Positions 1 through 62,599 of a DNA stretch of 64,000 bases are shown here, piece after piece; position 1 is the first letter of the stretch; each line of letters begins with the position of its first letter. The stretch comes from Nereocystis luetkeana (lineage: Eukaryota; Sar; Phaeophyceae; Laminariales; Laminariaceae): NCBI GenBank assembly GCA_031213475.1, contig JARUPZ010000035.1, positions 2,904,953 through 2,968,952 on the forward strand. The letters run 5' to 3'. The notes beneath the pieces were generated by a model that ran no database searches, had not been told where the DNA came from, and worked only from the letters and a program-made list of their open reading frames with translations. The position numbers and the translations under genes were made by a program.

Positions 1-142
1 CGCACGGTGTCGAACCATCGTCAAGCTTGAACACGGTCTTGTGGTCGCAGATTGAGGAAATGTGCCAGACGTCCGCCGCCCGAATCTTTGGCAGGGCCTG
101 CGTGATGGCCGCGATGGTGGCCGAGTAAATTTTGCACACCGC
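1..142 (-). CDS. Exon 40 (open at window edge): start of another GAF-like domain
   Basis: Acceptor AATCGGCAG, phase 0. Encodes KIYSATIAAITQALPKIRAA, DVWHISSICDHKTVFKLDDG, the helix plus paired-strand start of a GAF domain. The frame is open to position 1, so the gene continues beyond the window. Confidence 0.78.
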
Positions 143-3100
143 CTGCCGATTGAATTTTGGGAGATGATAAACAAAATCAGCACACCTCGGACAGAATGGT
201 TGGTGACTACTATTAACTTTAAGCACTAACCCTATAGCCTAAAGCCCCAGCCGATACCGCCGGGGCAAAATCTCGTAATGAGCATGTCGTGGTGGAGCAC
301 GCAAAAAATAGTAGCAAAAAACATCATACTCGTAAAATATATTCCGCCAGTTTCTCACTTGAGGAGGGCGCTCAACCGGCCCGAAAATATTGAAGTAAAA
401 AAGGAAAATATTATTCGAGATCGGGAACCGATATGATGATAATCTGCAGCTCGTTGCTGTAGAGATTATTGGGCGTTATGGTTCATATTATATGGCTGGG
501 TACGTACCAGTAGTACGTAGCTCGATTCGACAGCAGCAGCTGGCATTGTTGGGTTGATCGCGCTTGTGGGAGTACCAAGTGGATACCGCACGGAACGGTG
601 CTGGCAGACTGGTGAAACATGCGAACAGGCAGGGTCGGCCGCGGCTTGCACCTGGACAGCGGTCGCTCGCTGGGCCAGGTATCCGTGAATTCTGATTCAT
701 CAGCTATATAGGCGGCGAATCGTGAAAAAATGAAAAGCAACATCGGACGTGGAGCGCTTAATACGAGGTTCACGCGTGGCTCAGGTAGCGAGCGCGGAAG
801 CGGAGACACCGTGCATCGCTATTCCCTTGACAGTGCTCCTGTGAAGCCCGAAATGGGCTAGTTAGGTCGACATTGACGAAGCCGTCCTCCCCGTGTATCA
901 CCTCGTAGGGAGAAGGCCATAGGAGAACCGGCGTCAGCCCCATCGAACCTAGCCTTCCGAGGTGTAGTTCGTCCAGCGACGACGTGCTTACCGCCCGGGG
1001 GGGCGAACCCCCAGCCTCATTTTCGATAGTCCCAGCCAGGCTACGGTCCACGTCCCCCGTGATGGCCCTGCAGCAGTAGACGGGTTTGGGAACAGCCGAT
1101 CAGTTAATCTCTGTTATAGTGGCGCAGCGATAAGCAAATGTGAATGGTACAAAGCTTACATAGCTCGGGTGGGTAACTGGTTTATAACCTATTCCCAGTA
1201 CCTCGGGCGGGTATCATGCTTGTCCCAGGGTTCCACCCACGCCGAGTGATAATTATTTTTTGTTTTCTTCGCCTTTTTTATCACCCGGCGGGGGTTTCAT
1301 GTGATCGGATGCTGCCTAGGAGAAGGGTGATTTCTTACCCGTCAAACAAGATTATTGGTTATAACTTTTCACCAATACGTAGCCCAACAAAAAAATCCCG
1401 TATATATAACAAATCTCGATATTTAGGCAAGCATCCGTTGCCAGATACCAGATATAAACCTTGGGGCTGTCAAAGTAACCCCCTGGAGAGATTCCTTCTT
1501 CGTTCCACAGCAGTCTAAGTTTGTCGCGGTAAGAGAAAGCATAATCGAAAATTGACCCAAACGGCCGCACAAGCAGGGGGCAACCCCAACAAAAACCTCA
1601 GGTGCTGTGTTCACGGAATAGCAAGGAAACGCAATAATTAAAGCATCGCACACTTATTCAAACGCCTCCAATGACCGCACAGCGCCGGGGACAATCTAAA
1701 ACAACACTCCGGGGTGCTGTGGTGTGTTCACGAAACTCACAGCGAGGGAACGAATTGCGTGAGAGTTCGGCGAAGACAAGTGTGCCCTAGCGAAACACCG
1801 TCTTGGTGTCGCCGCCGATGCGACGGGTCTCCTCTGCACTCCCTCGCGAACACTCGCTCCACCTCTCTAGACGCGACGGCCCGAAGCGTTTCCGTTAGAA
1901 GAGATAACTTACTACATTAGCCTACCCCAGTCAGCGCTGACTGAGTAGGGTAGGTAGGCTATCCCTTCTAACCAGCCAAAAATACACTTCATGATGTTGA
2001 CTTGGTCTCGGCATTGACCTCCGGGGCGAACCCATCGCCACGCGCGACTGATCAGAATAGAGGAACCTACGTTCTTCCCCTTTTTTCGACCCCCCGGACA
2101 AAAAAGCGGTGACCGCCGAGATTCGCACTTACGCATACCTGGTACCACTTTTCCGGAAATGATATTCGTACCCCAACGGTCCTTACATTTCCGTTCAGTG
2201 TGGGCATCCATCCGTGTTTTTTTTTCAGTAGGAGCTGGCGGATCACAATAGAGGAATCGACATTATTTCTCCCCTCTTTTTCCACCTGTTGTGTAGAAAA
2301 CAAACCAAACAAAGTGATCAACGATCGCCGAGATAATACGATCGAAAACTGAACTCGCTATATTAAAAAAATATGTTAATTTAGCACATTTGTTGTAATT
2401 TTGACCGATTAAGCGGCTTGATACGCCACCTTGCAAGCTGTGTCATACACAATTCTTCTCCCACCTTCGGTCTCGCGTGGCGGTGATGGACGCCTTTTTT
2501 CTCTCTGTCCCGGGTCCGGGTCCGGTTCCGGGCGGCGGCAGCAAACTCAAACCTGGCTGAGGCGTCTCCTTGCCGCCGCTGTACCCTCCGCTTCCTTTAC
2601 CGGCAAAGTCGCCACCACGATCACCACCTTCCACCCTAATACCCGCAACCAGGGCTCGTGCTCGCGCTCGGAAAACCGCACCCCCTAAGGCCAGGCCCAC
2701 TCTCCTAACAAAATCGACTACCCCTGCCCCCACCACATAACGGCGACACCGCGATGATGGTGATGGCGATGATGATGATGGTGAATCGCGGGAGGTCCTC
2801 TCCTCATGATGCTGCTCCTGCTGCTGCTGCTGTTGCTGCGGTAGATGGGCCTTTGGAGGGTGGCCGGCATCGTGGCCCCCGCGTCCGCCGCCCCCGCGCC
2901 CGCCGCCCCCGCGCGCGTTGCGCCCTCGACGGTGGCGAGCTACGGTGCGCTTCGTGTATGGTACGTTAGCGAGGGTGATAACACCGACGCAGCCGATGCC
3001 GGGGGCCCACAGAGGAGCGATGACGAAGGCGTTCGCGACGTCTGGCCCGATACCGTCGCGGAGTATGGCCACGGAAGTCTCCAGCGCGGCGTCCGAAGAT

Positions 3101-6100
3101 ATTTGCTTATGCGCCATGGCCTTTGAATTGGAGCGCATCAGTTGGGTTGGGTTGGGTGGAGTTAAGTTGGGTTGGGATAGGTTGGGGTGGGGTGGGGCGG
3201 GGTGGGGTGGGGTGGGGGGGGAATGCAAGGGGTGAACATTTGGCACTAGGAACGCTTCAGAAGGAGCTGCTGCTGCCGATCGTTGGAAGTGTGCCACATC
3301 AGCACGTCAGGGTTTAGACAGCGTCGCAGCACAACACGCAGTTGGTATTCAACGCGCGCTTCGTGGCATTCCAACCACTGTGACCAACAAACAAGAAATA
3401 CTGCACGATGAGTGTTGTTTCCCCCACACGATGCCCCTCCGCGAAACGTGAACTATCAACAAGAAAATATCCCCGAGACAACCCAGAGGGGAACAGCAAA
3501 ACAAAAAGGTTTCTGCATTTACCATTTGCGAGACCCAGACAGAGGGTATACTAAAACCAAGTGCAAAAACAAGCAAACAAGCAAACAAACAACAAACTAA
3601 ACATTTTTTTCAAATCCGTACAGAAATCCCACCCCAACAGTTTGCGTTTTTTTCATGGCCTGTGAGGGGGGGGAGTGTGTCGTCGCTTTAAAAAAAATAT
3701 TTTCACCGTGTTCTCAAGAGTGGTCGCACCTCTTGGCAGATGGATACCACTCAGCGAAACGTTGTGCCTCACACATCGGACAATTCAGATAGATCAGATC
3801 ACCACGTCATGATCGAGATCGTTCAGGGCAGATAGATAATTCCTGATCTATATTATCTATAGCTGATGCGACTGGGTGGATGGGAGCTGTATAACCTATG
3901 ATCTGCCTAGCACAAATTTCTTCGGTTGGATCGGTACTTATACAGATCCTGGTTGAGCATTACACCAGAGGGTTGGGATCCAGATGATCTAGATGATTCG
4001 TTTTCTACGTAGATCATGATCCATCTGACGTATGAAACGCTTTCTAGAAACATGGAGATATCCCGGGATGGCCGCACCTACTAAGACGAACATGCTAAAA
4101 CCTAAACATTTTGGTTTCATTGCTTCGCAAACACATGTCAAATACTGTACGAGATTTCCCTGTTCTAGTAGAGTCCCGCATCCCACAAACCACGCCAGAC
4201 AGCCATCTGCGAAAGCCTTTAACCTGTCAACACATGGAAGCACAAACGAATAAAAAAAAAAAAACGGGAGTGCCACCCACACCCACACCTCTTGCGAGAT
4301 GCCGCCGCCACCACTCCACGAGACGTTGGCGACGTAGATCGCGTTTTCGATGACGAGAAAAAGGTCGCCTCGGTCCACAACGCGCCTCACCAGCCCGCTG
4401 GCCATCGGCAGAGGCCCGGACCACCGCCCGACAGACTGCACGACAGAAAGAAAGGAGGAGAGCAAGGAGGGGGGACGGACGGACACACGTGTTGGATCGA
4501 GCGTTCCCATTTTTGTTTGACGGCTGTTCACGGGTCGGGTCAAGAGTCGCGGGTCAGGTCGTCGGACACGCAACCCGACCTGACTCGACCCGACCTGACT
4601 CGACCCGACCCTACATATGATATTTGACGGATACCTCCTGACCCGACCCGACCCGACCCGTGATATTTCAAGAACTTCCTGATTCGGCTCGCGGGCCGGG
4701 TCATGACCCGTGAAGAGCCCTGTTGAATTATGTCCGGGAATAAAAGATCCGTTTGATATTCATATCAGATTCATAATGTTTATTATATTATCGGTCAGAG
4801 TGGCAATTATTTTCTTCCGACAGGGTGTCGGCCTACTTTCCTATAGAAATCCCTTCGGAAGCGCGAGCACGATTTTTCTGGACAAACTACAGGGGGGCGA
4901 GGGCGGGGGGGGGGTGTACTCGATAGGAGATATGTACTCGATTTCATGCATGGACGTAGTCGTGGAAGGGGCTTCGATTTAAGAGCACAGGGTTATGTCA
5001 GGCCTATAAGCGTTAATAGTAATAGCAGACCTCGCTTAATTAAACCGGTGTTTTCTCTTAATCCGGAATGGGTAACACATAGCTTTCAACATGCCCGTAC
5101 CAAAGCCCTCTGTACCTTTCCTAACCCCCTTTGGGTACAGCAGCCTCGTTGTGGGGACAAGCCACTTGAAAATGGAGTCGAATTTAGGTATACCTGGTAG
5201 GTACGGTGAGGTACCAAAAGAGCCACGTCGGTGTTCCTCTAAAAACCGAGCTCTCCCAAGTCGGCGTCTTTTGTGGACAGGTGGACAGGCTACTGCATAC
5301 AGTTCCTACATCGGACTGAGGGTACGCAGATACTTTACGATCTACGTAGGGTCCTGATCTGCACGATCTATTCGCGCAGCTCAATGTTGCCGGGCGTGTG
5401 GAGCCGTCTACATCTGCGTGGTGTAAGGGCGTGCGTTCTTGCTCGGACTTACCCGTACTTTGGTACCAAGATACCGCGCAGAAACTTACCACAGCGGCAG
5501 GTCAAACGTGATCAATCAAGATGACCTACCTCTGCAGACAGATCGTTTATCTAGATCTAGATCGCTACCCGTGCGACTCGTGAACTACCGTGCTTGGAAT
5601 CTTAGGTGTTGATTCCTTTTGTTTCGATTTTCACACGGCAGGGCCGTGCGCTGTGACTGTATAGACTTCACGGCTAGTTACTAGTATGAGCAGCTGAGTG
5701 TGGCGAGGTGAGCCACCTGACTGACTCTTTATTCTTTTTTTCGTAGTTCCTACGACGGGGGGTCATAGTAAATAGGACCTACGGTACACACAAACACCTA
5801 TATATTTACCTATATGTACTAACACTGTTTGGTCCTATTTACTATAGTCCCTAGTAATAATAACTCCGATGGGGGAAGAAAAAGGCCGAAGTGTTTTTTT
5901 TTCGCCATAAATAATGCCAAGGTCTAAACCGTAGTCCGTAGGGAGGGGGGGGCGGGGGCAGAAGAGCTGGCTATTTTGTGATCCCGGATCTGAGTTGCGA
6001 CTTACCGATATATCATTGGAAGGAGAGAGAAAAGATGGGCGAATATGGTAAATGGGACGGGAAAAAAATAACAATAGTAAAAATAAAGACATGATGGTAG

Positions 6101-9100
6101 CAGAAATAGTATACAAGCGCGCGTAAAAATAAAGACATGATGGTAGCAGAAATAGGATGCAAGCGCGCGAAATTTCCTCAAATTTGCGCACGCAACTAGC
6201 TGTAATACCTAGCGAACTAAAGCCGACTATTAACTTAACCGGCGACTTAAGTTGTTGAATTCCCGGCAGAGGCCAGAGTGGCCCTCACCATTCTCTTCGC
6301 GCGGTATGGTGTTCACTTTGACAGCTTTTTGTTTTATTTTCGTTTTTCGCGCGTTATCGCGGTACCACCTTCACATGTTACTTATCATACATATATAGCG
6401 CATGCCTGGTAGTCGTGTTTGCCCCGGGAGCTTTTATAATCGTCACAAGGAAAATCCACACGTTTGACCACGATGCAGGCAGGGGATTGATAGTCTCAGC
6501 AGACAGTGTTCGTGCTGACCAGTGTCGCAGCAACGGTGGGTCGAGTGGAGGGAGAGCGGGGTATCTACTCGCGCTTGGACGGCCAATAAAAACGACGGTA
6601 GTACGTGGGGGCTACGTGTCACGCTCGTAGATCGGCAGAGTTACAGCCACCACTGCAGTACTACGATCGCTCGGATTGCGGCAATAAAAATGAATTCCGA
6701 GTAAAGACGCGTGCTACGGTAGGACATGCCTTGTAGCATTTTCTGCCTTGCAAGGCAAATATTTCTGACAGAGGGGGGGCTTCTTGAGGACACTGAAAAA
6801 CTATCCAATAAGGCATGCCTGATCGTTAATCTCGTTTTCGTGTTCACGATAATTTTTGGAACAAAACCAAGATACTGTAGGCCTGCTAAGTGAGTATCTT
6901 TTCTTTTTTTTTCTGAAAAATATATTCTGGGAGGGCAGTTCCTCAAGTTGAGTAGCCTCAGAAAAAAAAAGTGTTACCTCTCTACCGTACGTAGCCCACG
7001 CCTAGCGCCGTTTGCCACATGTCCCCCACAACGAAGCGTTTTGGTGAACCTTGTCATCGTTTTTTCAGTGGGATACCCTCCCCGACATGACTTTTATCTG
7101 CCACCACGAGCACAGTGTGCATACGGCCTTGCATCTTCCGAAAACGTTTGCACCTGCATGCCGCCGATTGAGCTGCCCACCGTCCCTAGGTCTTTTGGCG
7201 GGCAATCAGGCCGGTCAAAGCTCCACCCGGCCGACGATGCGGCCACAGGGAGGCGATAACCCCCGCTGTCTAGAAGGGAAATGATCGTCAGCATTTCCTG
7301 CGGCTCGCAGTCGATCTCGACCCCAGCGCCGGTGCAAACAGGTTCCAGAGCGGAGACCACTTCCCCACAAACATCTGCTTGCGTACGATACAAAAATAAT
7401 GCTCAAAATGAAGAGGTTTAGGCTGGGGAGGGAGAGCGTGAGGGAGGGGTACTCACATACAACAATTTTGAGGCCCAGTTACGAGGAATAGACGAGGGGG
7501 GAAAAGTATTGTCTTACTGTTGTTTCGTATTCTATCCTTCTGTCGTGGATCATTTAACGTATGTGTTGGGTTGGATGAGGCCTCCTGCCCCGTATAGGAG
7601 GTCTCGTACGGTATTTCTCCCCCGCACTGAATAGAGTACCCACCCAAGTTTTATCTCCACGTATCGGACCTACCCCAGCGGTGTTTGTTTGTTTTCACGC
7701 CACCTTTTTTTGCAGTCTCCTTTCTTGCTCCTGCTTCCTCCTAGTCGCGACCGAGACCCGGGGTGACATAGTATCATAGGCCCTTTTACCACCCCTACTC
7801 CCCACTACGGCGTGTGCCCTTGATTTTTTGAAGGCGGGAAGGGTTCAACGCTTTCTTCCCTCGTCGACCGGCGTCTTATTGTGCCTACATACCCACTACC
7901 AGGTACATAGTATCCGCTCTCGACAGCAGTTGGTGTCGTTAGAGACGTATAAAAACTACATACGGAGAATTGAACCCACGGCATCAACGCTAGTGGCATT
8001 CGGGAATAACCACTATCAATAGATCATCGCGGCAACCGGTTAGTATAAAACTTACAGTAGTGGTGGGCGGTTGTACTTCTGGAGTAAAATACCTTCAAGT
8101 CGTAGCTTCGGTTCGCGGCAGAATTTCTCCACGTCCTTGGCGCAGCGGTCCATTAGGTAGTGCCGTACCCGCCGCGTTCTGATTTTGCTGGCGGCGTCGT
8201 CCGCCGCTCGTGCTATCTCGGTGGCAATGTCGATGTCTTCCTTGCTTATCTGCCACGGTGAGATTTAGCATTTGGTTTCTTCTTGGTGGGCGTATAGAAT
8301 GAAACTTCCACGTTATTCATTATTACAGCAGTGGTGTATCAGGTTTCCACTTTAAGACCACCTCGTGACTAGGCCAAAAGCGTGGTATCGTATATCTAAT
8401 AATATGGTCTTATCTTTTTACCACCGAGACAGATTCTCCCACGCTGGTTCCAAGTTTATTTTTCCTCGTGACCAAGCCGATTTACCTGGTTTTATTTCTG
8501 TACCGTGGCCTTAAGCCGGTAGTCTTAAAAATGTGTACAACCACCATGCTGTACGTCGATTGAAGTAGATTGAGGTTAAGCGGTCCTTGTATTTACGCCC
8601 AGAGCGTTACTTCATGCATACCACTTTGGGTGTCTGTCAATATGAGGACCTTCTATCTTCATATTAATGTATCAACGATCCCTATATTACCGCCCAGAGC
8701 GGTACGTAGGTTTTCCCTTTAGTTTTAGTTCATGTTTTTTTTCTGAACTGGAAAGGTTTAGGAGTGATCAACGTTGAAGTTCAGGTGTGCTTCACATCGT
8801 TGAGGATTGGCAAAAACAACGCAAAAATAAAAAAATAGCAACGAGTACCGTGAGGTATTGCGTCGACGTCGTTTTTTCGTGGACGCCCCCCCCCCCCCCC
8901 CTAGCATTAACACCGTACAGAGCGTTGAGTTGACACTGGGATAGTGCGATGGATATTCAGCGCTCGATTTTCCAGGACGGGAAGGTTAGGGTTGCCACTA
9001 ATACCCAACAAGAAAGGCGGTTTCGGGAGAGATCTGACCGAGAGAGAGAGAGGGAGCTCTCCGGAAACACAATGTTCGTCTCGAGGTAGTACCCTTACTC

Positions 9101-12100
9101 ACCATTGTCCAGGGAACACGAGCGCTGAAAGACGTTCGCGTCGCCCACCCCTGTACGAGCTTGTTGCTCTTGACCCTACGCAACGACCCCGCAACCGCAA
9201 ATACAAGGAGCGCGCGCGTAGAGCAATGCCTTGTAGGGGCGGTGCCTTATTGTCTGAGCTCCTCACACCGGGGGCTCAGCATCTTCCCCGAGACGTGGTG
9301 TCGAAGAAGTTCGTTCGCGCAGCCTAACAAGTGTGCCGGTAAAAGTAACATACTGTCCGGTAGTTGGTCGCTTGGGGGAACTCAACCGGTCAGAAAATGT
9401 TGCCTCAGAAGGCAAAAAAGTACAACCCCCATCGTGGGATGAGTCCGTACCAATACCACAACGGCTCTTACATTTTGGGACAGATTGGTGCACCAAGCCA
9501 GAAAATCGTGGAAGGGGCTACAGTGATAAGCCTGAATAATGCCTTCATCAGCTGGGTGGGTGGGTGGGTGCCCACGGGTTACTACGCGAACCACGGTGAA
9601 AGTGCTTACAATTTATTTCACCAGCCTCAATAAAAGGAATGGGTCGCATATATAGGTAGCCGCGGAGCACTGCTCGATGTCCGCCCGTCCATCAAAATGG
9701 TCGAATTTTCTGGCCGACGTGATCAACCTCAGACAAGGATGAAGGGTCGTTCGAAGTCGAACTCAAAATGGTGCGCGCTCACCCTCCCGCAAAGTTACAA
9801 ACTTTGTCTATATATATAGCTGAAATGTGGCGTCTGCTGCACCACGAGATGTTATTCCAGGTTTTTCTTTTTCGCTGTAGTATTCTGACTCGATGTCCTG
9901 GATCATTTGATGTAAGTATTGGATTTATGGATGAGGCCTCCTGCGTCGACCCGTGGTCTCGCCCATACTTCGTTGCGTCGTTGGAAAGTATCTTGTTGTG
10001 TTTTCTCATAAAAGACCACTGGTCAGATACGTAGTTGTATCACCCAAACTTCTTTGCGCTTGCCTCCACCCTGTCTCGCACATGCTGCACGTCTGCTGCA
10101 CCACGAGATGTTATTCCAGGTTTTTATTTTTCGCGCTTGGCAACTTTATGTACGCTCCTATGCGTGGGGTATTGTTTTCGAGCTACTCGATTCAACGAGA
10201 CCCTAGAGATCAATATCAACACAGGAAGAAGCGTTCAAAAACGCCAGGCTCACATGGCGCGGGCCCAAGAACAGCGTGAAGCGGGGACACCGCAAGAAGC
10301 GGTCTACACTGCAAAGGCTCAAATGGCGCGGACTTGGGACATAAGCCGAAGCAAAAACAAGGGCAAGCGGTCAAAATTGCAGGACCTAAATTGAATGGTA
10401 CGACTCGAGCAAATACCAACAACACGAAGGGCAGCAGCAGAAGAAGAAGAACAAGAAGAACAAGAAGAACAAGAAGATGCGCACCTGCCCAGGGGCACAA
10501 GAAATAACCAGCGCGTGCCTTGGCCTTTCATCTGCTCCTTCCGCGTCACGTTTCGCGTCACATTCCGCGTCACGCTCCGCAAGGATGGGTTGCAGGAGCA
10601 CCACAAGCCGGTCGCGCCCCCCCTCCCCAGCACCGCTGTTAGCAGCGAGCACGGTGTGTCCCCCTCTCCCGCGACGGGCGAGGCTTAGGATCTGGCCCGC
10701 GAGGACTTCGGGTATGACCGCGGCGGCCCCGTCCGTCATGTTTGACACGCCGGCCGCGGCCGCACCCGAGAGTACGCCACCTTTCGGTAAGCGGGTTTAC
10801 AGAGCATCATGGATGGTGTAGTATCGCAATACAGTAGGTTTGTTAGAGAGCAAGCATCACGAGGTACGTGTATTACGGAGCATCATGAGGTGTATGTGTG
10901 TATTACAGAGCATCGTGAGATATATAGGTGTATTTAAAGAGCATCGCGAGGTACGCGTATTGCGGAAGACAAATTAGGTGTTGTGCTATTTAGAGCATCA
11001 TGAGGTTGGCCACGTGTGATGATCGGCTTAGAGCATGTCATGGGAATCTTCAGACTGCGGAGCCATGCCACCTCTGGCGTGGTTTGCGTATTACAAGAGT
11101 ATCGTGAGGTTGGACCCGTGTGAATGGCAGTTAACACCCCGACATGACAAGTTTTGGGGGTGTAAAGTTTGGCCGAGGTTTCGTTGACCTGAACTTGAGG
11201 GGAAGGTGTGCTGCTGACGCGCGTGTGCTGTTTTACTATCCGCCCTTTTATAGGAGAGCGACAAAGTTGTGATATGGAACCAGAAAATGTTTTATTATTA
11301 TCCTTACTACCCCACAACATGTATAGCCTGAGCTTCAATGCTGATAGCTCACACCAGGTAAGTACTCTTGCTGTATGCGATCGGCTGAACGGATGAAAGA
11401 CCTTCAAGTAATATCTATCTTTCAGCCGGCGGTTCTTATGGAACTACACTCCCGCTTCGTTGAAAAATGACTTGGAACTAGAGGCAAAAATGTGTTTCTG
11501 CAGAGCGCAGTAGGCAAACGAAGCTCAAGATTCTTTCACAAAAAACAGAGCGTGCCAGGTACAAGGTAACGCTTCAATTGCCGGACATTGTGGAACAAAG
11601 AAACATGCGTATCTCCATCAAATGTCACTTGCTCTTTGTTCAGTAAACGTTCGGTACGAAATCATCACATGTATGTATATATCACCTTCGAGCCGGTCAT
11701 GAAGCGCCTGCACTCTCGACAATATCCGGGGCACCTCGATGCCCTCCTTTACCCGCCTCATCCTGGCCGCGCCAGCATCCTCCGCCACCCTGAATTTCGC
11801 CACCGCATACGCCTGTTGCGACTCCTCCTCCCCCCCCAGGAGTACCATAGATCCAGGAACAAGGCCCGCTCTCGCCTTCTGCTTTCTTGCACCGGGCGTC
11901 CCCTCCTGCCCATCATCAACACCATCGTAGGCGCAGGCGGTGAAGGTCTCCAGCGACAAGGTCAGCGTTCCGGTTATGGTCTCGCTTTTCGCGAGGTGCT
12001 TCTGAACGTTGCCGATCATTCTGTTGGCGAACCTTCCTGCCGCCCCACCGCCACCCCAACCGGAGGAGGGGTCGTGGCGGTCGGCGGCCGGAGTGCGATG

Positions 12101-12236
12101 GTCGTTGTCGGGTACGATGGTTGCTGCGGTAGTAGGGTTGCTCACCGCGGCGGCGGCGGGAACGTATTTTTTTACGCTGTTATCGTCATCATCGTCTCTG
12201 TCTTCGACGGCGTGAGGAAAGCCGTCACCACCACCA

Positions 12237-12267
<31 letters not shown>

Positions 12268-18200: not shown

Positions 18201-20084
18201 TACAGCAATCCAATTAGTACTTCGTTAATAGGCTACCAGGTACGTTGTACCCTTTAACTCGTGTCCTAAACCCAAACCGAAGCAGTGACCAAATTAATTT
18301 GTTGTGTATAGTAGGTACAGAAGGGAGCTAGACTTCTCGCGTAGGGCTTTTTTTGTTCCCATTTTTTCTTTTTATAGCGTGAACATGAGTGATCAACGTT
18401 GAAGCTCAACCTACACATTGCCGGATGGGCAAGGATAGCAATAATTAAGTACGTAAATGCTAGTCAATTTAGTAGATAGTTTTAGCCAATTGATTCGTCT
18501 GAAATAATTATTTGATTACTTTATTTTTCTCGAACTGCTGTTAACTGTATTTGCAGTTGTTCCACAATCTTTTTTTCTTCCCCCCCCCCCCAAAACTACA
18601 AGTGGGAAGAATGTAAAGAAAACAACGATACGAGGTTGAAAAAACAACCCACTACATACCGCGCTGTCGGTCTCTATTCACTCACGAGTCGGGCTTCGCC
18701 AAGCCAGACGCCCCACGGACAACCAGTACGGCATGCCCCCGCGCCTCCTCCTCCTCCGCCCCCTCTTGGCCAACCTCCCCCCACTCCAGCTTGAGCACGA
18801 GCTGACCCATCGGGCGAAGTTCTTCTCCTCTCCCTTCTTGTTCGATCCCGGTATATCTTCCCTCCTCCTCCTCCTCCTCCTCCTCCTCGCTAACGAGGAT
18901 ACAAGCACCGCCATTGTTTCTTCCCGACGAAAACAGCTGGACAAAGTTGTACCCGTCCCTTGCAGCGTCGAGATCCAGCGACGCGGAGGCCAGCGCGATC
19001 TCGGTAGAAGTTACTCCGGCCTCCGCCGCCATCACCCCCCCCGCCGGCGTCGCAGCCGGCGTCGCAGCCGCCATTTCTCGTTGGGTGACAACAGCAGCAG
19101 TGTCACTGCTGCTGCTGCAGCTGCTTTTTTCCACCTTTGCGATAATATGGCACCGGAGCTCGGTCACGCTTTGGTCGATGCGAAGACCGTGGTGACCGTC
19201 ATGCCACTGGGGTGCGCAGGAAACTACTCCCCCGAGTTGTCGCTTCACGTGAAACGGTGTGGTGCGGAAAGCGGCATTTTTCCCCCCCCCCGCGGAAATC
19301 CTTACCGTAACCGAAACGACTTTGTCCCTCGTGCTTGTAGCACCAGCCGACGACGATGACGACGACGAGGTCCTGTAAAATTCTGTGTTTTTTTTTTCAC
19401 GGTCCGAAGGGAAAGCAAAGCACGTTGTTAAGTAGCGTCGTTTAGCGTGTGTATATAAGCTAGCCCGTAGCTGACCTCTATCACTTGAAAACCGTCACAC
19501 AGAAGCAGATGAGCACTACTCGTAGAGGGGTACCGACCTCGTACCGATGATGTCGTACGAAATGCGGCAAGTGTCTCAGATGACTCCCTGTGTTATCAAG
19601 CAGCGACTAGATGAGGCTGGCTGAAACCGCTGTAACAATCTATCATATCTACAGTAATACAGGTTGGTATTGGCGTTTGGTGGTGGTATATGAACTACTA
19701 CATCTCAAAGGCCAGCACGGACAAAAACAAAACCGTTTGAACATCCGTGTTTGTGTGTTTCGTGAACCGCGCGATTGGTTGCAGCAGCATGGACAGGTCA
19801 GAGTGGCACGTTTTCCGTGAGCGCTCCCTCCATGACGCTTGCCATGATAGTGGAATACCGCTCTGGCCGTAAATATAATAACCATTTGGCCTTCACGTTA
19901 TTGTCTATACGGTCCTTTTACTTCCGCCCAGAGTACTATATAGAGCGCCATATGGCCATAATGCCGTATAGAGCGCTGAGCTCGCCTTACAGGAGGGCGA
20001 TATCGTTTTTTAGCGCTCGATTTTTCGAAAACGGGAAGGGTTTCCAACACCTAACAGAGGAGGCATTCTCGAAAATATCCGGTC

Positions 20085-20119
<35 letters not shown>

Positions 20120-30969: not shown

Positions 30970-31000
<31 letters not shown>

Positions 31001-48359: not shown

Positions 48360-48390
<31 letters not shown>

Positions 48391-51300
48391 CCAACCAACC
48401 ATTTGTTGTAGTCAATTTTCCCCCCGATTCTCTTCCCCGATATCATACATTTTATGGTGCTCGATTGCTATCCTTATTGTCATTATTATTCTCATTACTA
48501 TTGCCATTATTTTTTCAATGAATGGTTGCGTTTCGCGTTGTCCAACAAAACAATACTGGTCGGTATGATTGTCACGACGCTCGACTTTCCGTAGCATGTT
48601 GATATATATATAGCGCACTTATGATAATTAGTCGCCACTAATTAATATCCCCCGCTTTGCTGTTTATATCTTTCGAATTGCGCGATTAACCAAACAGTGC
48701 CCGCTGCTGCTGTCGAAGTACGCTACGTACTACTGATACGTACTCAGCCAAAGAATGTGAACCAGGACGCCTGATTCTCTCTACAAATACCAACTGCAGA
48801 TTGCTATCATATCGGTTCCCGGTCTCTAATAATATTTTCCTTCCGTTTCATGGGGATATTAAATAGGACCTACGGTAACACAAAAACCTACGGTATATAG
48901 TTTGCTATTTTCACTAAAAATATTTGGTCCTATTTACTATGGTCCCCCGCAGTAGAGCCTGATCAACGCATGCCTTTTACGCTTCTAACAAAAACAAACT
49001 TGTATATATATGTACGTACACCACTCACGATTTTTTTCTGCAATGGTTGCATGCATAGAGGGCTACCGTAGGGGCAGCACAGTTTTTTCTTTACAAAACA
49101 CGGTGAGTACGTACAGAGTGCCATGGCCTACTGCTGTAGGCGCTATAACGAAGAACATCGTGCGCCACAAATAATTGGATCCCAATGACGTTGGTCAGTT
49201 TCCTCTTCAGTTGCAGAGCTCCGACAGTCGGACGAAATATTTCGGGCGCGGAGAGCGCTGCCTCGGCACGCGTCGCAAGGCGTTGTTTGTCGTGTCCGGC
49301 AATTACTGCAACAGACTGTACTCGTGGGTATGTATGTACATGCAACAAAAAATCACCTGAATTCCGCTAGCAGCCCCTTCAGGAGGCTCGTCAGGCATGT
49401 CGCCGTTCGCCTCTCGGACCGAAAACGTCAGAACTCCTTGCACCAGCCGGTTGAAAGCGTTGCCCTCGTCCGTGTTTTTCTCCTGACAAGAAATACGGTG
49501 TACGGTAGTGTTTGGGAGGGGACCACTTTGAGGTACAGCAGGCACCCCGACTCAAGAGAACTGTGGCATGATACGTGCACGCCCGGAATCTGACATAGGG
49601 AAACACGAAAACGCGACCCGACGAACGGTGCCACGGCCTGGGCGTACCTGATACACCGAAAAGTAGTGCGAAAACAGAAATGGTATCCCAGCGACCCTTC
49701 AGTAATAGAGGACTCTCGCCAGTGGGATTGTTTCGTTTTTTTTGGTGGCACGAAAACGCCACCCCTATCGGTTGGTCCGATAAAAAAAAAAATGAAAAAA
49801 AAATGAGAGCAAACAAACGAGGAAAGAAAAAAAAGCTAACTCGACCCGATAAAAATGTCTCATCTTTTTAAGGGCCACGTGTTCCTCAGTTGCAATGGTT
49901 GAAAAGAAAATCGGCTCAAACGAGCTACTGATGTACCCTGTAGCCGAACATTTTCTGAACAGTTTCTGAACAGTTTCTGAACAGTTTCTGACCATTTTCT
50001 GAGTTTTTTCCTGAAAAGATGGTTGGTTGGGCGAGATTGTATTTCGGAGCCCCCTCAGGTGAGCAGGAGCCTAAGAGAAAACAGGAGTTGTAGACCCCTT
50101 TCTACCCTCGGAGCACCGGCGGGTCCCAGGCCACCGTTTTTTTGTTGGGTCGGTGCCCCCTCCCACCCCTTGTTTTCAGGAAAACTCTACTCGGAAAGAG
50201 TTCTCATCTAGAGCTACAGTATGCGAGTCGACGGGGGAAGAAATGACGATGTGAAGTCTTCTCGTGATAAAAAATAAACAAGGCACGGACCGTAGTGGGG
50301 AGGAGGGGGACCATATTAAATAGGACCCACGGTACACACAAAAACCTACCAGGTACATATTTCGTTTTTTTTACTAATAGTATTTGGTCCTATTTACTAT
50401 GGACCCCCGTAATACTAGGAGGGAGAGAGATAAGAAGGGCGAAGACAACACATACATGGGATGAGAAAAAATAAACACAAAAAACGAGAAAACAAATCTC
50501 AGTCCACGGCCACCGTTTTTTGTGTCGTGGGCGGGCGGGCTCCCCCTGTGTTCGCAGGAAATTATCATTTCAGGAAGGGGGGCGCTCTTGTGCGTGTTAC
50601 ATACATGCACGGGTGTAAGCCCTTGGCCAATCATCATGGCAGAAGCACCACAACCCGTAGGTGCAAGCAGTAGGTCTCACCAGTTCGCACTCCATGGGTC
50701 CAGTTGGTAGGGTTAGCTCCAAGAGCTCCTCCTTGGGCAAAGGAACCTGAGCGAGGTGGGACGGGGTGTGCGAGGGGCGGCACACTGCTGCTGTTGTGAT
50801 AGGGCTGGGCGTAGCCGACGGCAAGCTCTCGTGTTTTGGTAAACTTTGTCCCTGGAACTAGCCGGTTCCCCACGATTGTCGGCAAATCAGCCGCCGTTGT
50901 TGTTGCGTGAAAAAGAGAGGTGAATGTGTCGGTACATCCCTAGAAAGAAACTACTGCAACCCATGATTTCCACCATACATAAGAGACCGAGTCTTGTGCA
51001 GTGGACAGTTGAGTCCGTAGCTGCAGCTGCCCCCGTGCCCCGCCCTCCTTGTTTCCTGCCTTTCTTCCTTCATTGGTCCCCTTTGCGTATTCGCGCTGCC
51101 TACTCGATCATTACGCGCTGGAATATAGATCACGAAAAATTACGCCCCCGCCCCCGCCTCCCCCCCCCCACACACACACACCCTCGTCGCGAGGCGTGTG
51201 TACATCCAACCACGTATTGTAGGTGGCTCCATATTCCATACTCCCTCCTTCTTGCCTCCGCCCCTGATGTGCCTAGAGTAGATCTGATAACGCGAACATA

Positions 51301-54300
51301 GCTCAAAGTAGTGTTTCATCTGCTGTAAAGGTCAGATCGATGAGGCATTTACGCAAAAAAAAATGATCCCAAGAATACCGGCACAGTAGTACCAGGTATT
51401 AAGACAACAACCAAATACGAAACTTACCAAAAATAGAGTAAAAAATATTCCCCGTCGCTAAACTGATACACAAGTTTTATTTTAAGCGTCATGATTCTGG
51501 CGTTCCACCAAAAAACACAAAAAACAATATTCGACGTTCGGTCGGATGCATCATCGTTATCATCATCAATACCGCCGCCGCCTCCTAATGATCTCTTTCT
51601 GTGCTTCACCTGCCCCAGAAAGTCTCCCTCTCCGAGGTCATCTTCGTCCCAGACTTCGAGGCTCATGTCACATTTCGCCGCGTCTTCGACGCCAACCGCG
51701 ATCACAAACCGCTCCTCTGGATCCGTCCACTCGGGCTCTAGTGATAGGGGGATGGTGCGAGTGCGCCCGAGCTGAACAAAAAAAACACCGGGGTGGTTGG
51801 AGAGGAGTCGGGGAGGGGGGGGGGGGGGGTGTACTCGATAGGAGATATGTACTCGATCTCATGCATGGCCGTAGTCGAATGACCATAGACCCTCGCATCC
51901 CTACAATGCCGGGACGGAGCATGTCGGGTTTTCACCGACCAGGGAGACATTGCTTGCACCAAGCGCGAAGCGCCGTGAGGTGTCTGGCGAGTCGCATGAA
52001 GGGTGAGCTGCATCCTACTAAGAATCGCTTGTGAAGCGGACTAGCATACGGATTACAGCTTCAATGAATTCATTTAATTTCCGGTGTCGGCATTTCCAGA
52101 GACAGCAATGGGAGCACTATGTAACTGCCTCTCGGGTGCCTTACCATAAACACTACGTGATACGATTATTCCCCTGTACGGAGTAAAGGTTACTCACCTC
52201 GAACAAACGATCTAACTCGACAACCAGCTGTGACCGACCGCCAAAAAAAAAGAAGAAGAAAAAAGGCGGTACCCTGGTTGTCTAGCTCATGTAGTGAGTG
52301 GCATGTTTTACAGTGTCGTTGCCAACCGACGTCAACCCAACCTATATATTATAGAGAGGGCCGAGGGGGGGGGGGGGGGGTGTACTCATTCTCATGCATG
52401 GCCGTAGTCGTATGACCATAGACCCTCGCATCTCTACAATGCCGGGACGGAGCACGTCGGGTTTTCACCGACCAGGCAGAGTCGCGGGGGGGGGCGGGGG
52501 GTAGAGGGGACGGTGGTACGTACGTAGATTTATCTATACCATATACGGCTCGGCCCCAGCTTGGATTAGATGGTTGATAGCCTTCACTAACTCCTCAAGA
52601 TACAGCTCAATCCCGAGAAATCAAAAAGAGAAATTTCCCAGATTTTTTTTCATAGTCCACGCCCTACAGGAACTTCTCGAATTCTGACTCGTTTCCCAAA
52701 CGATGTTTCCGCAAAGGTTTGTGGTGTGACTAAGGCTGGCGGGAAACATATTACGGGGGACCATAGTTAATAGGACCAAATATTGTTAGTAAAAATGGTT
52801 AAATATATAGGTTTTTATGTATACCATAGGTCCTATTAACTACGGCCCCCCGTAATAGTAATCATACCCAAAATATTGCGTATAAACATGCGGGGATGCA
52901 TGACTTTTGGGTCCATATTTTGGTTCTGATTAGTGTTACGGGGGGGAGACAGGGGGAGGGCACAGTAATCAGGACTTAATATGCTTAGTAAAAATGCTGG
53001 AATATGTAGGTTTTTGTGTATATGGTGGGTCCTGATTACTTTGGTCCCCCGTTGCAGGGGTCAGGGATAGGGGTAAAAAGGTTGGGGGCTCGAAACTAAT
53101 GCAACCCCTCTCTAAAAACCGCGGGGGCACGCACGGCTCTTTTTTTTACCTGCTTGTGTTTGTTGACGCGAATAATCACGTAAGGGTCGGAAAGACCGAA
53201 CCTGTCGGCTTTCGCCAATCCTCTCGCCTCCATCACTCGAACTTCCAACCTTCGATACTGGGAGTTCGGTTGAAAGGTTCGTGTTTGGGGGGGGAGGGGG
53301 GGAGGGGGGGGGGTTGAAATGTTAGGATAGGATAGGGGAGGGGGGTGGACTCGTTATCATGCATGGCCGTATAGTCGTATGGCCATAGACCCTTGAGGAG
53401 GAGAAGGAGAAGGAGGAGGGAGGGGGGGATGTACTCATTTGTTTCTTGCCTTAGTCATTTGACCATTGACCACGTATCCCTTTCGAGACGGAGCACAATT
53501 CCTACTCCTAATAATAGAGACACCTCCAACATTTGGGCGCCCATCACGTTGTTTCCATATCTTACATAGAAACTTTTCGCTAATCTTATCCCCTTCCTGT
53601 TTCGCCGCCTGTGGCCACCATTTATTCCCTAGGATAGCGATCGTTTTATCGCTTCTGTCTAGTGTACCAAACTTCTCCATGGCACATTCCTCTATTTCCC
53701 TCATCCCCTCTTCTAACACAGGAGGGGAGGGGGGGATGAGCTCATTGTCATGCATGGCCGTAGTCGTATAACCACGGACCCTCGCATCCCTACAAGGCCG
53801 GGTCGGAGAGCAACGTCGTGTCTTTCACCGACCAGGCATAAGCATCGCTTGCACCGAGCGCGCGAATCGAGACAGGAGGCAGTTTTTCAGCGAGGAGTCG
53901 CAAGAAGAAGAGTGAGCTGCATGTGATCCTACTACTAAGAAAACCCGCTCGCCTGTGGGGCGGGATAGCAGCGTCGAATCCAACGAATTAACGGACAGGG
54001 GGAGGGGGGGGGCGAACTCATTTGTTGCTTGCCGTAGTCATTTGACCATCGACCACGCATCCCTCTCGAGACGGGGCACCGTTCTTACACCTAATAGAGA
54101 CACCTCCAACATTTGGGCGCTCATTCCGCTGTTTCCATATATTGCATCGAAGCTTTTGCTAACGGGGGGGGGGGATGGTTGAAACGTTAGGATCTGTTAT
54201 TAATAATAGGCATTTCCACAGGGAAGATTCATTCCTGGTCTGTACGATCTGTATGATATGATCTGTATGATATGATCTGTATGATCTGTAGCCCATGTTG

Positions 54301-57300
54301 CCGGGTGGGAGCCGTGTATTCTGGGTGAAGGCGAAGGGGGGTGCACTCATTGTCACGCATGGCCGCAGCAGGCCACAATAGCGAAAGTTGTCATGTCATT
54401 TTTCCTTTTTCTTCCATCTCATTTATTATCTTTCTCGCTCTCCCTCCCCTCCTATAATAGTGTCATAACTCAGACCCGGGGTCACATCGATAGCAGGCTC
54501 CCCTCTCCTCCTCCTCCTCCTCCTCCTCCTCCTCCTCCTCCTCCTCCTCCTCCTCCTCCTCCTCCTCCTCCTCCTCCTCCTCCTCCTCCTCCTCCCCGGA
54601 CACTACGGTTCGTACCTTTGTATTTTTCTTATATTGAGAAGACTGCGCCCGTTTTCTTCCCTCGTCGACCCGCACCGAAATGCTCCTACCCACCCCCTGC
54701 CACTAACAGGCGTTCTCAGCAGTGTATTCCGTTTTTTTTTCGAACTACTTGTTGCAAAATAAAATTAAAAAAAAATCGACCCACGCGGGAGTCGAACTCC
54801 AGCACCATCTCTTGATACGGGGGACCATAGTTCATAGGACTTATGTTATACATAACAACCTACATATTTAATCATTTTTACTAACAAGATTTGGTCCCAT
54901 TAACTATGGCCCCCCGTAATAGTAGCATGCGAGGGTATTAGCCCAACGATAGGGGTAGAAACGTAGCAATTTTTTGGCAGAAACGTTTCTGACTGATGAT
55001 TGCTGAGGAACTACCCAGTCCCGTTGGAAGTCCGTTCTTTTTCGTTTTGGAACATGATTCGACGCGATATATATATACGAAGTATATAACATAGTTTTTG
55101 ATTTTTATCCCCCCCCCCTGAAAAAAATCAGAGGAATTTTATTTTTGGTTTTGGAATACATGATTCGACGCGATATATATATACCTTATTTTCGTTTTTT
55201 ACCAACCCCCCCCCCCCCCCCCGAGAAAAACAAGAGGAATGCTACGTGCGTAAGCCTTCCTGATATTTTAGTGCCCTTTGTTAAATTTCTTGATTTGTTA
55301 AAGGAAATGTGTTCCCCTCCTACTGGTTTTTCTTGTTTTTTTCCCGATTTTTTCCGCATTTTTGGAGAAGAACAAGAAAAAGATGGAAACTCAGGCAAAA
55401 TAAATAAAAGGCTTTCTTACGATGAAGAACGGTCCTAAAGGTCCTAAGCTACACTACAACCTTCGAAATCTACATGTGCATGTAGTACCTGTGTGAGGAT
55501 CGAAGACCTTGAAAATGCATTGGACGGCGCGAACTCCTCGCTCAAGACGCGGGTATCAGTCGGCTCCTCTTCCCCGTCGTCGACGCCTTCCAGCCTGTAG
55601 AAAATTTCGCCTTGCACCAGCCACTGCTCTGATAGCGGAACCTTCTTGCAGCCGTGCGTTGGTGCGTGATTGCACGCACACCGCGGGGTTTGTCGGGCAT
55701 ATATATAATGTGCATGTTAGTGTGAATGTCATTAGGTGTGCACTATGGAAAATGGCAGGGTTGTCAACGAGTCGGGTCAAACCTCGTGGGTCAGATCGGG
55801 TCGGGTCGGGTCGGGTCGAGTCGACTAAGGGTAGCCCGACCCGATCCATGAGAGTTTGAAAACCTACCGACCCGACCCGACCCGACCCGACCCGTGGTGT
55901 TTCCAAAACGCCTTGACCCAACCCGCGGGCCGGGTCATGGGGTGTGAAGAACTCTGTTAACCCGTTTGGGACCGCGGTCCCGTTTTGGGGACAAACTACT
56001 TAGAACGTGAGTGGTTTGTCCCCCCCCAAGGAGACAGTAGTCCTGAAAAAGGATTTAACTACAGTAGTTTGTTTTATCTACACAAAACGGAGCAAGCAAG
56101 CAGGCAGGCCGTCTTTCGACAAGGTTGCTACGCGCTGCAGTCCCTCGTCGCCTGTAGCAGACGGAAGGGGGCGAGACGATGTTCGGTTATCCGAAACCAC
56201 TACATAGCGAGGCGTGCTACACTAGAGGGTCGCACTTTTTTGCCTTCCGAGGCAAGAGTTTCTGACTGACCGGACTCCTTAACCCAATTATCCTTTGAGA
56301 CTGGCCATCGGGTTGCGCTTTTAGCTCGTCTAAAACAAACAAACAGTCTATTACGGGGGACCATTGTAAATAGGAACAAATATTGTTCTTAACAAGGGGG
56401 AAATTTAAAATATGTAGGTTTTAGCGTGTACCGTAGGTCCCGCCCGTAATAGGGGTGAGGAACAGACCTCCTGAAGTCAGGACCCTCGGAAAAATTGGAT
56501 GCTACTGGTACCGCGGCAGGCGTCCTAGAGTATCCCTGGTAGGCGGTATGGGTCTAGGAAAGAACCGCCTTCCTCAAAACATCACAGGAATGACGCGTAC
56601 TGGTACCTGGTAGCATTTTTTCGATATGGGATTCGGGGGACGCCAGCGTGGCCCTCCATGGGCGTTTGCTGAATGGTGGATGGTACGGAGTTGTTTTCGG
56701 CGGTCGCTTCCTCCCTCTAAGACGCAGTGAACACATTCGGCCGAAATACCCCCCCCCCCCCCTTTTTTTTCAAGCCAAGTAATATTATCCGCTTCGATCA
56801 TTTCGGAAGGGATATCTTTCTCTTGGCGTTGTCAAAATTTCTTTTTTTGTGCGTCGTTCAAATCTTCTTCTTTTTTTCTGGCTTTTTTTTCTGGCGTCGT
56901 CAAAATCGATTGTTTTTTGGCGTAGTCGTCAAGAACAATTGAATAATCTTTGTAGCCAGACGGACCAGCCGACAAATGCACTAAATGCACCAAATGCAGG
57001 CATGCATGCATGCATACCTCCTGTTTCTTTTGCAGCTTGGCCTGCTTGTTGTGGGCCTCCGCGCCTTTGAGCGTTCCAGGCGAGTGAAAGCGGAGGAGAT
57101 CATTGCCGGAAATAGCCGCCTGCCTCGCACGACACGGGGAGGGGAGGGAGGGGGGGAAGGGGGGGGTCAGTTTCGCAGCGTTGTGCGTGCAGGAAAGCGT
57201 ATATCGGACAGATCATCTAAAGATAGATCCCGATCTACAGGTAGATCATCTGTCCGTTGTGATAAGTTGTGAAGGATCTGTAAAGCGCACAGACCCAACC

Positions 57301-60300
57301 CGGGAAACGGGTGCGATAGGAGATCATGCAGAATTTACGACTCTCCCCCGGCAACATGACCTAGATCGTGCAGATCATGCAGATCATACAGATCGTACAG
57401 ATCATACAGATGAGGAGCTATCTGCTTTGAAAAAGATCTATAGATCATGAGCTGTTGTGAAGTTCGAGGTCGGGACACTCTGTATCCCTTGCCAGTTTTG
57501 TCTATTGAGCAGGGTACTCGTTGGTACTCACGCGTGTCGACTGCTTGATAGTAGGAGAGCAGCTGTGTTCCTTTCGAGCACATTGAGAGAATGAGACCAA
57601 GTCTCGTGCCTCGCCGGAAAACCCCTGGTTTTCCGTCTAAGATACGCCTCTCAAGTACTACAAACCGATCCCAATACCTGAACCCAGGGAATTACCAGCC
57701 TTTCGGCCTCATTCAATGCTGTACCACAACACTCGCTCACTCTGATGAGCCGCACATACAGAAATATGGGAAATTCTTGGGAAACCCCGATTCCACGAAC
57801 TAGAACATGAGTCAAATATGCTGCTCCTCAAAACCCACTCCTACACCTCTGAACGGCGAGGTTACGAATGCGACAAGGAACGCCAATGAAAAAAAAAAAA
57901 AAGGAAGGCCTAACCGTAAACGGCTGGAATAAATCGTCAACGAAAGCCATCGTCCCTTCCGCCTCGCCGGAAAACCCCTGGTTTCCCATCCAAGTTACGC
58001 CTCTCACCCAAAAGCTGATTTGAACAATAAGAAAAAAAGGAACCCCCACCTCGCCCCCCCCTCTCCTCCCCGATGAAATCATCCCAAGGTACTGTACGTT
58101 CATAAAAGCATTCTTGGTTGCTGAACAGTAATGGCATCCCGACGATTTTTTACGCCAACCCTTTTATTAATAGAGGTGCAGTCCCGTTTGGGGGGGACAC
58201 ACCACTCAAACTGTAAGTAGTTTTAGTCTCCAGAAACTTTACTGCAGTTTGCCTCAAGGAGCCCCCCCCCCCCGATATTTGTTTGTTTTGTTTCTAGTAA
58301 CCAAAAAGTGCTGCCCGTGTTGTAAGACAAACGGCGCACAAAACACCATTATGGTTTCTCTAGGGGCTTCGTTATCGCTAAATACTGTTGTACGCAGGGT
58401 AAGAGGAGAGATGTGAGCAGGAAAAGTTACGATGGTATCATACACGCTGCCAACAAAAACAGGGGGGGGGAGGAGGGGGGGGCGGGACTGTTTCATTGCA
58501 ACATGTGTATGCCGCGTCCGAAACCGCAACCCTGATGTGACTCCTTTTTGTTATTGCTAATGAACAGCCCTGAGGAGGACTTCGCACCGTACCAGCTTTA
58601 TTACCTGCGCGAACCGTAACCCCGACCCAGCTGTTCATAAGTAGCCCCGAGGAGGGCTTCGTATCGTTTCAATTTTTTACCTGCCCTAGGAAGTTGTGCG
58701 GATCTCCGAATTCTTCATCGAAAACCTCGAGCGCGAACCCCCCACCGCCGACGGCCGCTTCTCGAGGGTGAGGTATGGTCAGCAAAATGCTCTGTTTTTT
58801 TTTTCAAGTCGCAAGGGTTTCACGAAGGGGGGGCCGAGGATGTTTTACGGGGGGTCAAGAGGCCGAGAACGCATTCACTGGCACGTCCTTTTTGTTCTCT
58901 TCAAAATGTCGTGCGCCTCATATACTCGAGAAAAGCTGACACCGTGCTGTTTAAGCATGTAAAACGCGTTGCCCCGTGTCTCGTCTCAGGCACAACGTTT
59001 TCCCCTCTCGCCGCGCAGCGCTACAGAATTCCAACACGCTGCAAGAGTCGAGGAGTCAAACGACGCGCGTGCTATAATACGTGCGTCTGTGCCAGGGAGC
59101 CATCTTATTTTCGACCAGAAAACAAAAAAAAGCGTGACAACGCTGAACAGACTGCATCCCACAACCGGTAGCAGACATAGACAGCCAACATTTGGCGGTC
59201 GCCAGCTACCATAACACATGCGTGGTGGTTGCATTCGCAACGAACGTCCCGCAGACGGTCCTGCACCTACGCTACAATAGCAGTCGTCAACACGTTTCGT
59301 TAGGTCAGGGACAGGTGCGGCGTCTGGGCCATCCTAGGATGTCCTAAGCAGGTTTCCTGCTCATATAAACAGCCATGCATGTGTTGGGTGGCCGCTTCTT
59401 TGCCTGCCCCACATAGGTAGCATACCAGCACGCTCCGAAGGAAAAACACGGCAGTTTTCAGCGTACGTGCCTCTCCCTCTTTTCCTTCGCCCCCCCAGAC
59501 GGGGTCGGTGTGGTTGTAGATTGTCGTAGTTCGTGCCACCTCGCGCCCCCTCCTCTTCAGGATGCACATCGAGTTTGCCCCACCAGCGTCGTCCGCCTGT
59601 CGCAGGGTATAAATGCGCTGAAAATGTTTTATGGGCACACCACGTTTGTTTACGCTTGGTGGTTGACGGGCGAGACACAACCGACCCCCCACTCACTCCG
59701 ACCCATGAAGAGCACAACAGCACACTGAATGAAGTACGTAGGTATGAGTACATAGAAGCCTCATCTAAATAACTCCAGTACTTGTCGCTGAAAACTACGG
59801 GTGAAGGCGAAGAAGAATACAACGTGGAACTACAATGTCGCGTGCGCTTTAGTTCTTCCGGCGGCTGAAAGAAATGTAGAAAGGCAAGAAAAATACTGAG
59901 AACAGAGGCGCGGGGGGGGGGGGGGTACTCATCTTTAGCTTGCCTTAGTCATTGCACCATTGACCACGAATCCCTTTTGAGACGGAGCACCGCGGGCGCG
60001 GGGGGGGGGCAGGGAAAGGGGGTGAACCTGCTTTGAAGATTTGGCTCTGCTTTCCTCGATCGCGCTCTCTGCCCCTAAACAAGAAAATTATATTTTTAGC
60101 TCACAGGGAGTGCGGAGGGGTTTGGATAATCGTACACGACGTTCCCACGGGACAACCAACGGTAGCAGAACCCCTAACTAATTAGGCAACAGGTTTGGGG
60201 GCAATAAATAAAGAGATTGAACCCGCAGAAAGGATACGAGCGAAACGAGCGAAGACATTGAGATACGAGAAGGGTCAACAAGTATAGGTGTGGTTTTATG

Positions 60301-62522: not shown

Positions 62523-62599
62523 CTGCACCAACCATACACTCGATTTGAGGATATCAAAAGGAAACTATACGCAGGAAGTATGCAGCTCTAAAGAAACCC

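Follow-up and report, generated by a model that had tools for sequence, protein, structure and literature searches.

We analyzed a 64,000-nt stretch of Nereocystis luetkeana DNA (contig JARUPZ010000035.1; hereafter the window, in whose positions all coordinates are given). As judged from its sequence, it holds the middle of one intron-rich brown-algal gene together with most of that gene's 3′ part; the gene encodes a giant protein built of C2 units and GAF-like modules. The spliced model, with all exons on the minus strand, comprises 39 exons running from position 62,522 to the left window edge, that is, 11,628 coding bases and 3,875 residues with no internal stop. An earlier note on this DNA had put forward one giant gene of about 40 minus-strand exons and more than 3,700 residues across the window, and both the exon count and the protein length bear it out.

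Homologs from separate gene models follow the window in the same order. P0006 of Scytosiphon promiscuus (4,440 residues) is co-linear over residues 261-4135 with positions 62,523 down to 29, as are the partial P0001 of Ectocarpus sp. 12 (3,427 residues) with 44.6 to 0.9 kb and P0007 (EukProt g6853.t1; 4,825 residues) over residues 1673-4581 with the window exons. Residues 1258-1652 of the partial P0002 of Hapterophycus canaliculatus (1,653 residues) match 62.5-49.4 kb. Where the sequences align, the window protein is 53.6% identical to P0006 (1,930/3,598), 50.8% to P0001 (1,584/3,118), and 52.3% to P0007 (1,440/2,751), and the best C2 exons are ~80% identical to the homologs. Co-linear tblastn chains on the minus strand reached 2841 (P0006), 2290 (P0007), and 2300 (P0001), far above the controls, in which these queries gave chains of 112 up to 182.5 against the plus strand or the reversed sequence. 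A query with the N-terminal part of P0007 retrieved 21 proteins, namely P0008 (Ectocarpus sp. 13), P0009 (Laminaria digitata), P0002, and 18 others of 937-1,206 residues, and the N-terminus is common to P0007, P0008, and P0009. Since several exons found in the window and in P0006 are absent from P0007, we regard P0007 as an incomplete model. Our reading of a single gene thus draws on co-linear homologs from separate gene models, the controls, the uninterrupted splice model, and the shared N-terminus.

To view the whole protein, we assembled a composite from 1,944 residues of P0008, 109 of P0007, and 4,424 of P0006, giving 6,477 residues (~716 kDa). About 2,297 of these residues precede the first exon of the window and ~300 follow its last; the homologs continue on both sides, so that neither end of the gene lies in the window, as had been supposed. 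Along the composite, the N-terminal third is rich in GAF; ten C2 units come next, then GAF-like modules, of which one has an IQ motif, then another four C2 units, and finally C-terminal GAF-like modules. The P0007 model reaches from the N-terminus that it shares with P0008 and P0009 as far as the C-terminus.

The named relatives with this C2-GAF architecture (Ectocarpus, Hapterophycus, Scytosiphon, and Laminaria) are all brown algae. The architecture is apparently restricted to this group within the limits of our protein searches, which reach relatives sharing short exact words and, in part, scored the best 8,000 candidates. The NCBI homologs are labelled "unnamed protein product" and, except for P0006, marked as partial. 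No paper on such a C2-GAF protein was found by title in the brown-algal, C2/GAF/IQ, or giant-protein literature, a body from which subscription journals were mostly absent. The component modules are known; their combination apparently has no described counterpart in the literature examined, in agreement with the earlier statement that no named family has this architecture.

C2 units and calcium ligands

The C2 identity of the domains is certain at the level of profile matching. PF00168 matched three of five joined or single pieces with E values of 1.2e-44, 8.5e-35, and 2.6e-29 and scores of 151.2, 119.6, and 101.9 bits, against a curated cutoff of 22. Pfam scans of ten single open reading frames (ORFs) recovered C2 in only two, because the exons are short and joined pieces are needed. 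Twelve C2 units were assigned in the window (9 clear and 3 weak or degenerate) and 14 in the composite. Our own C2 profile, which was derived from seven P0006 and P0007 units and run on the first rough gene model, detected units A, B, C, D, E, F, I, J, and K below 1e-8, which makes 9 of the 12 in the window. Units G (0.06) and H (0.005 and 0.03) scored weakly, and C2 unit 10 was assigned by eye. By eye, too, an intron falls right after the FLGQ/FLGR strand in exons 3, 7, 19, 22, and 28 and near calcium loop 1 for exons 1, 15, 27, 29, and 30; such like intron places across repeats are as expected of a C2 array grown by duplication.

We counted calcium-ligand aspartates (Asp) by eye on homolog and window sequences at what we take to be the positions of the five calcium-binding Asp in C2 loops 1 and 3. 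In the window, units B and C each retain all five, as a calcium-type C2 domain does, D retains four, I and K three each, and A two. Complete sets recur across sequences for B (4 of 4), C (2 of 2), K (in 3 other species), and D (2 of 4), so some of the calcium sites seem to be under selection.

There is about an even chance that the protein is a soluble, calcium-responsive scaffold whose C2 domains bridge membranes. A soluble chain that carries several C2 domains of the calcium type points to calcium-dependent bridging. For synaptotagmins, tandem C2 domains are reported to cross-link membranes where individual ones failed (PMC2726287). In the mechanism we envisage, the protein would be a soluble peripheral scaffold. 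Upon a rise in calcium, the C2 units with Asp sets (B, C, and nearly D here) would bind acidic membrane lipids; several such units per chain could bridge two membranes or collect vesicles at a membrane, and the degenerate C2 units and linkers may serve as spacers or protein-binding faces. A crude hydropathy scan of the composite gave no convincing membrane span. Hydropathy exceeded 1.75 only at composite residues 5895-5915, which lie inside a GAF-like module ~560 residues before the end.

Several observations pull away from such a role. Six of the 12 window C2 units retain at most one Asp ligand, and ligands kept by P0006, whose units A, B, C, D, and K have all five, are lost in this species (2/5 left in A and 3/5 in K). 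The losses in units A, I, and K argue against a calcium role that takes in the entire array. A calcium-independent structural scaffold, to which we assign a real if minority chance, would use the C2 and GAF-like modules for protein contacts, for example in a cytoskeletal or flagellar structure, with the Asp residues as leftovers. The units with at most one ligand, the incomplete sets of A, I, and K, and the lack of a detectable GAF ligand motif (see below) would all fit it; the complete sets maintained in B, C, K, and D across the sequences listed above argue against it.

GAF-like modules and the IQ motif

The GAF identity of the main module of the window is probable; this grading draws on profile matches below threshold, on a link between its profile and that of a sister module, and on a structural model of low confidence. 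GAF_2 scored below cutoff in 9 of the 21 N-terminal homologs (best E 0.0016), and the best homolog GAF score was 19.1 bits against a cutoff of 28.6, short of what Pfam requires. Among nine module alignments compared as profiles (36 pairs), the GAF module with the IQ insertion (GAF-IQ) and its sister module N3, which resembles GAF, were linked by hhalign with probability 100 and an E value of 9.5e-47 that is not calibrated against a database. Other linked pairs were N3-N5 (96), N2-GAF c (78), N5-GAF-IQ (78), N2-last module (28), and GAF-IQ-C-terminal module (6.5). The remaining 30 of the 36 pairs reached 2.8 at most, so the comparison does not demonstrate that all GAF-like modules descend from one ancestor.

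Structure prediction, which the earlier note had proposed for each module, gave a divided answer. Among the 50 Foldseek matches listed (of 111), 45 were GAF, phytochrome, or IclR effector domains, as judged by title or known family, and none of the 50 had an E value below 0.001. The AlphaFold models of two GAF-like modules have a mean predicted local distance difference test (pLDDT) of 44 and 32; given this low confidence, the structural matches are hints only. Further results likewise count against a GAF assignment or a GAF-type ligand. Neither PF01590 nor PF13185 matched the window pieces, the Foldseek list for the C-terminal module (28 matches) was mixed, with some phytochromes, and a pattern scan for an NKFDE-like cyclic-nucleotide motif found none. 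We hold it improbable that the modules belong to another alpha/beta sensor fold such as PAS. In favor of that fold are the missing curated match in the window, the low-confidence models, and PDB profile searches with three alignments that gave no GAF match; the sub-threshold GAF_2 matches, the link to N3, and the GAF-type titles that dominate the Foldseek matches listed are what make GAF the probable assignment.

The IQ motif LQKMFRGKLNRDRL (23453-23494, minus strand) lies in a loop of the GAF-like module in exon 24. It fits in full what we take to be the IQ consensus, [FILV]Qxxx[RK]Gxxx[RK]xx[hydrophobic], and the full consensus is likewise present in P0001 and P0006; P0007 has no match, its model lacking that stretch. 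Weighing on the other side, PF00612 stayed below its cutoff of 20.3 bits on two 38-residue pieces (15.6 and 13.9 bits; E 0.013). In the profile searches by which the earlier note was to be checked, C2 is far above the cutoff, GAF is unmatched in the window pieces, and IQ is sub-threshold. The alternation of C2 and GAF-like arrays that it described keeps its order and its Pfam-supported C2 units, with 3 of the 12 units weak or degenerate and the GAF part lacking a curated match.

An Agenet/Tudor-like piece, also sub-threshold, occurs inside GAF-like module N3 (P0008 939-974; P0009 935-964). The loops of GAF-like modules thus seem to accept inserted modules, and the gene would illustrate how IQ and Agenet-like modules can sit within GAF-like ones.

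Exons, introns, and repeats

The final exon model was homology-guided and checked by hand. Its 38 introns (mean 1,339 bp; range 312-2,723 bp) have GT-AG ends in 36 cases and GC-AG ends in two (after exons 2 and 17), with phases 0/1/2 of 27/4/7, and 34 of the 38 exon junctions align to the homologs without gaps. Several splice sites were picked with homologs in view, so the gap-free junctions and the matching phases, which had been claimed and do hold in the joined model, are partly so by construction. An earlier splice-aware search without homologs, trained on segments chosen by eye, gave 42 exons and already recovered most final exons on the minus strand. Of these 42, 26 share both boundaries with a final exon, 8 share one boundary, 7 overlap no final exon, and 1 fits none of these classes; 4 of the 39 final exons were missed. 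The model is least certain where exons 3, 5, 10, and 27 begin and in exons 17 and 38, whose identity to the homologs is low.

Two explanations bear on the gene model itself. It is very improbable that gene finders fused two or more adjacent genes. The homologs do look like gene predictions, the NCBI ones except P0006 being partial, but models of several species cross the module borders in one order, P0007 runs from N-terminus to C-terminus, and the window has no internal stop. A decaying pseudogene copy in this species, for which the lost calcium ligands and the long, repeat-rich introns might be cited, is hardly credible given the absence of stops and frameshifts in the coding bases, the GT-AG or GC-AG ends assignable to every intron (though chosen for that), and an overall identity of 51-54%, rising to ~80% in the best C2 exons.

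The gene would extend over ~100 kb if intron density elsewhere equals that of the window. Its great length stems largely from long introns. For three brown algae, published means are 7.5-7.9 kb for gene length and 530-740 bp for introns (PMC6418280), against a mean of 1,339 bp over the 38 introns here; the earlier note had called the size of more than 62 kb exceptional. Over exons 12-38, the part covered by P0001, the window has 33.7 kb of intron, against 9.9 kb of room in the 20,228-base contig of P0001. The introns are thus at least about 3 times longer here than in the P0001 gene, assuming that this contig holds its whole gene.

Along the gene, the exons are as follows (brackets give coordinates and residues identical to P0006 unless another homolog is named). 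Exon 1 (62320-62522; 35/65) carries the linker end of an upstream C2 unit and the start of C2 A, which continues with loop 1 and its middle in exon 2 (59471-59596; 29/42) and ends with FLGQ in exon 3 (58681-58791; 29/37). Linker follows in exon 4 (57018-57119; 24/34) and, with an LVQG strand, exon 5 (55489-55641; 30/51). C2 B starts in exon 6 (53150-53257; 29/36) with both loop-1 Asp, and its remainder, with the loop-3 Asp, is in exon 7 (51610-51771; 43/54). After linker exons 8 (50681-50746; 16/22) and 9 (49357-49482; 29/42; FNRLVQGVLTFSVRE), exon 10 (46556-46784; 60/76; Pfam C2 1.5e-12 on its ORF) holds most of C2 C, and exon 11 (45799-45977; 42/59) its end and a linker. C2 D starts in exon 12 (44454-44564; 28/37 P0001), continues in exon 13 (43063-43188; 31/42 P0001), and ends, with a linker, in exon 14 (41686-41871; 43/62 P0001). 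C2 E occupies exons 15 (start; 41085-41170; 22/28 P0001), 16 (middle; 39602-39716; 31/38 P0001), and 17 (38151-38231; 13/27 P0007), the last followed by a GC-AG intron with a GCAAGT donor. Exon 18 (36606-37348; 97/226 P0001) combines the end of C2 E, a low-complexity linker, and the start of C2 F, which ends in exon 19 (34279-34366; 23/29 P0001).

Exons 20 (31731-31820; 16/30 P0001) and 21 (30073-30192; 31/40 P0007) are linkers, exon 22 (28620-28949; 62/110 P0001) is the weak C2 G, and exon 23 (26618-26847; 60/76) a linker with the start of C2 H. The long exon 24 (23151-25433; 342/694) contains the weak C2 H, GAF-like module c, and the module with the IQ insertion. That module ends in exon 25 (21681-21795; 26/38), where by eye a half GAF begins; exon 26 (20803-20989; 39/62 P0001) holds this half GAF and the start of C2 unit 10, both by eye, and exon 27 (18686-19382; 94/211 P0001) the unit itself and the start of C2 I. 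Next come C2 I in exon 28 (17555-17765; 40/70 P0001), a linker and the start of C2 J in exon 29 (16073-16786; 72/233 P0001), C2 J with the start of C2 K in exon 30 (14969-15760; 117/254 P0001), C2 K in exon 31 (14155-14360; 49/68 P0001), and its end, a linker, and a helix in exon 32 (11686-12452; 93/201 P0001). By-eye assignments give a GAF-like module in exon 33 (10485-10780; 67/97), helices between GAF-like modules in exon 34 (8093-8249; 29/52), and the start of the following module in exon 35 (7154-7374; 37/72), with its middle in exon 36 (4289-4435; 37/46 P0007) and its end plus a low-complexity linker in exon 37 (2465-3120; 88/199 P0001). Exon 38 (902-1067; weak, 17/55) is a linker ahead of the last GAF-like module, which by eye starts in exon 39 (1-142; 31/47) and runs off the window.

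The introns host repeats of several kinds. A short inverted-repeat element with ends like TATTACGGGGGACCATAGTAAATAGGACC, which looks like a family of miniature inverted-repeat transposable elements, has copies at 5743-5859, 20678-20798, 32282-32378, 48834-48955, 50291-50414, 52749-52854, and 54805-54921. A second dispersed family, with a core like TGTACTCGATATCATGCATGGCCGTAGTC and often adjoining poly-G runs, occurs at 4899-4990, 16817-16933, 38391-38507, 44637-44679, 51831-51947, 52364-52480, 53329-53371, and 53720-53836. The intron between exons 31 and 32 contains an inverted repeat (12954-13502) of 220-base arms that are 85% complementary and 109 bases apart. Tandem arrays of ~42-base and 9-base units lie at 42215-42955 and 47529-47899, respectively, and GGGTC pentamers run from the donor of the intron after exon 10 (46519-46555), with similar runs near 4.6 kb and 55.8 kb. 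An ORF between exons 18 and 19 (35177-35647, plus strand) resembles by eye the tail of a reverse transcriptase of a long interspersed nuclear element, without Pfam support. As for a gene nested in the introns, Pfam scans of ten further ORFs gave nothing convincing. No Rfam match reached the gathering score in the window, whose GC content is 46-56% in 2-kb steps.

Possible signalling role and known systems

Beyond the membrane-bridging scaffold proposed above, the GAF-like modules may serve to dimerise the protein or to hold a small ligand, and calmodulin on the IQ motif could alter the surrounding GAF-like module. A further and rather doubtful extension is that this ~716-kDa protein acts as a signalling hub that senses calcium directly (C2) and via calmodulin (IQ in the loop of a GAF-like module), perhaps also small ligands (GAF), and responds by tethering membranes while carrying no enzyme itself. 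No enzyme domain was significant in Pfam scans that covered the window pieces as well as P0001, P0002, P0006, P0007, P0008, and P0009. Such a hub, if true, would be brown-algal and without known counterpart. The complex multicellularity of brown algae arose apart from that of plants and animals, and to our knowledge little has been learned about the calcium and membrane machinery they use; a conserved giant protein gives a concrete target for its study.

Among known systems, GAF sensor proteins (phytochromes, GAF phosphodiesterases, and histidine kinases) resemble the present protein in having GAF modules, here probable ones, in series. They differ in their catalytic output, since here Pfam gave no significant kinase, cyclase, or phosphodiesterase domain and no NKFDE-like motif was seen. 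P0003 (ENA), a C2-rich protein with ten Pfam C2 stretches, is the best match of the C2 query outside this architecture (25% identity), but only 20% of the query is covered and RCC1 repeats stand in place of the GAF-like modules. Synaptotagmins, extended synaptotagmins, and MCTPs share calcium-type tandem C2 domains. These proteins are, as a rule, membrane-anchored and carry few C2 domains, whereas here there are 14 C2 units, GAF-like blocks, and no anchor seen. Ferlins (dysferlin and otoferlin) likewise carry many tandem C2 domains on a long chain; their C-terminal transmembrane domain has no equivalent in the crude hydropathy scan of the composite, and we know of no ferlin with GAF. By its sequence, the protein is a multi-C2 protein with a new combination of modules.
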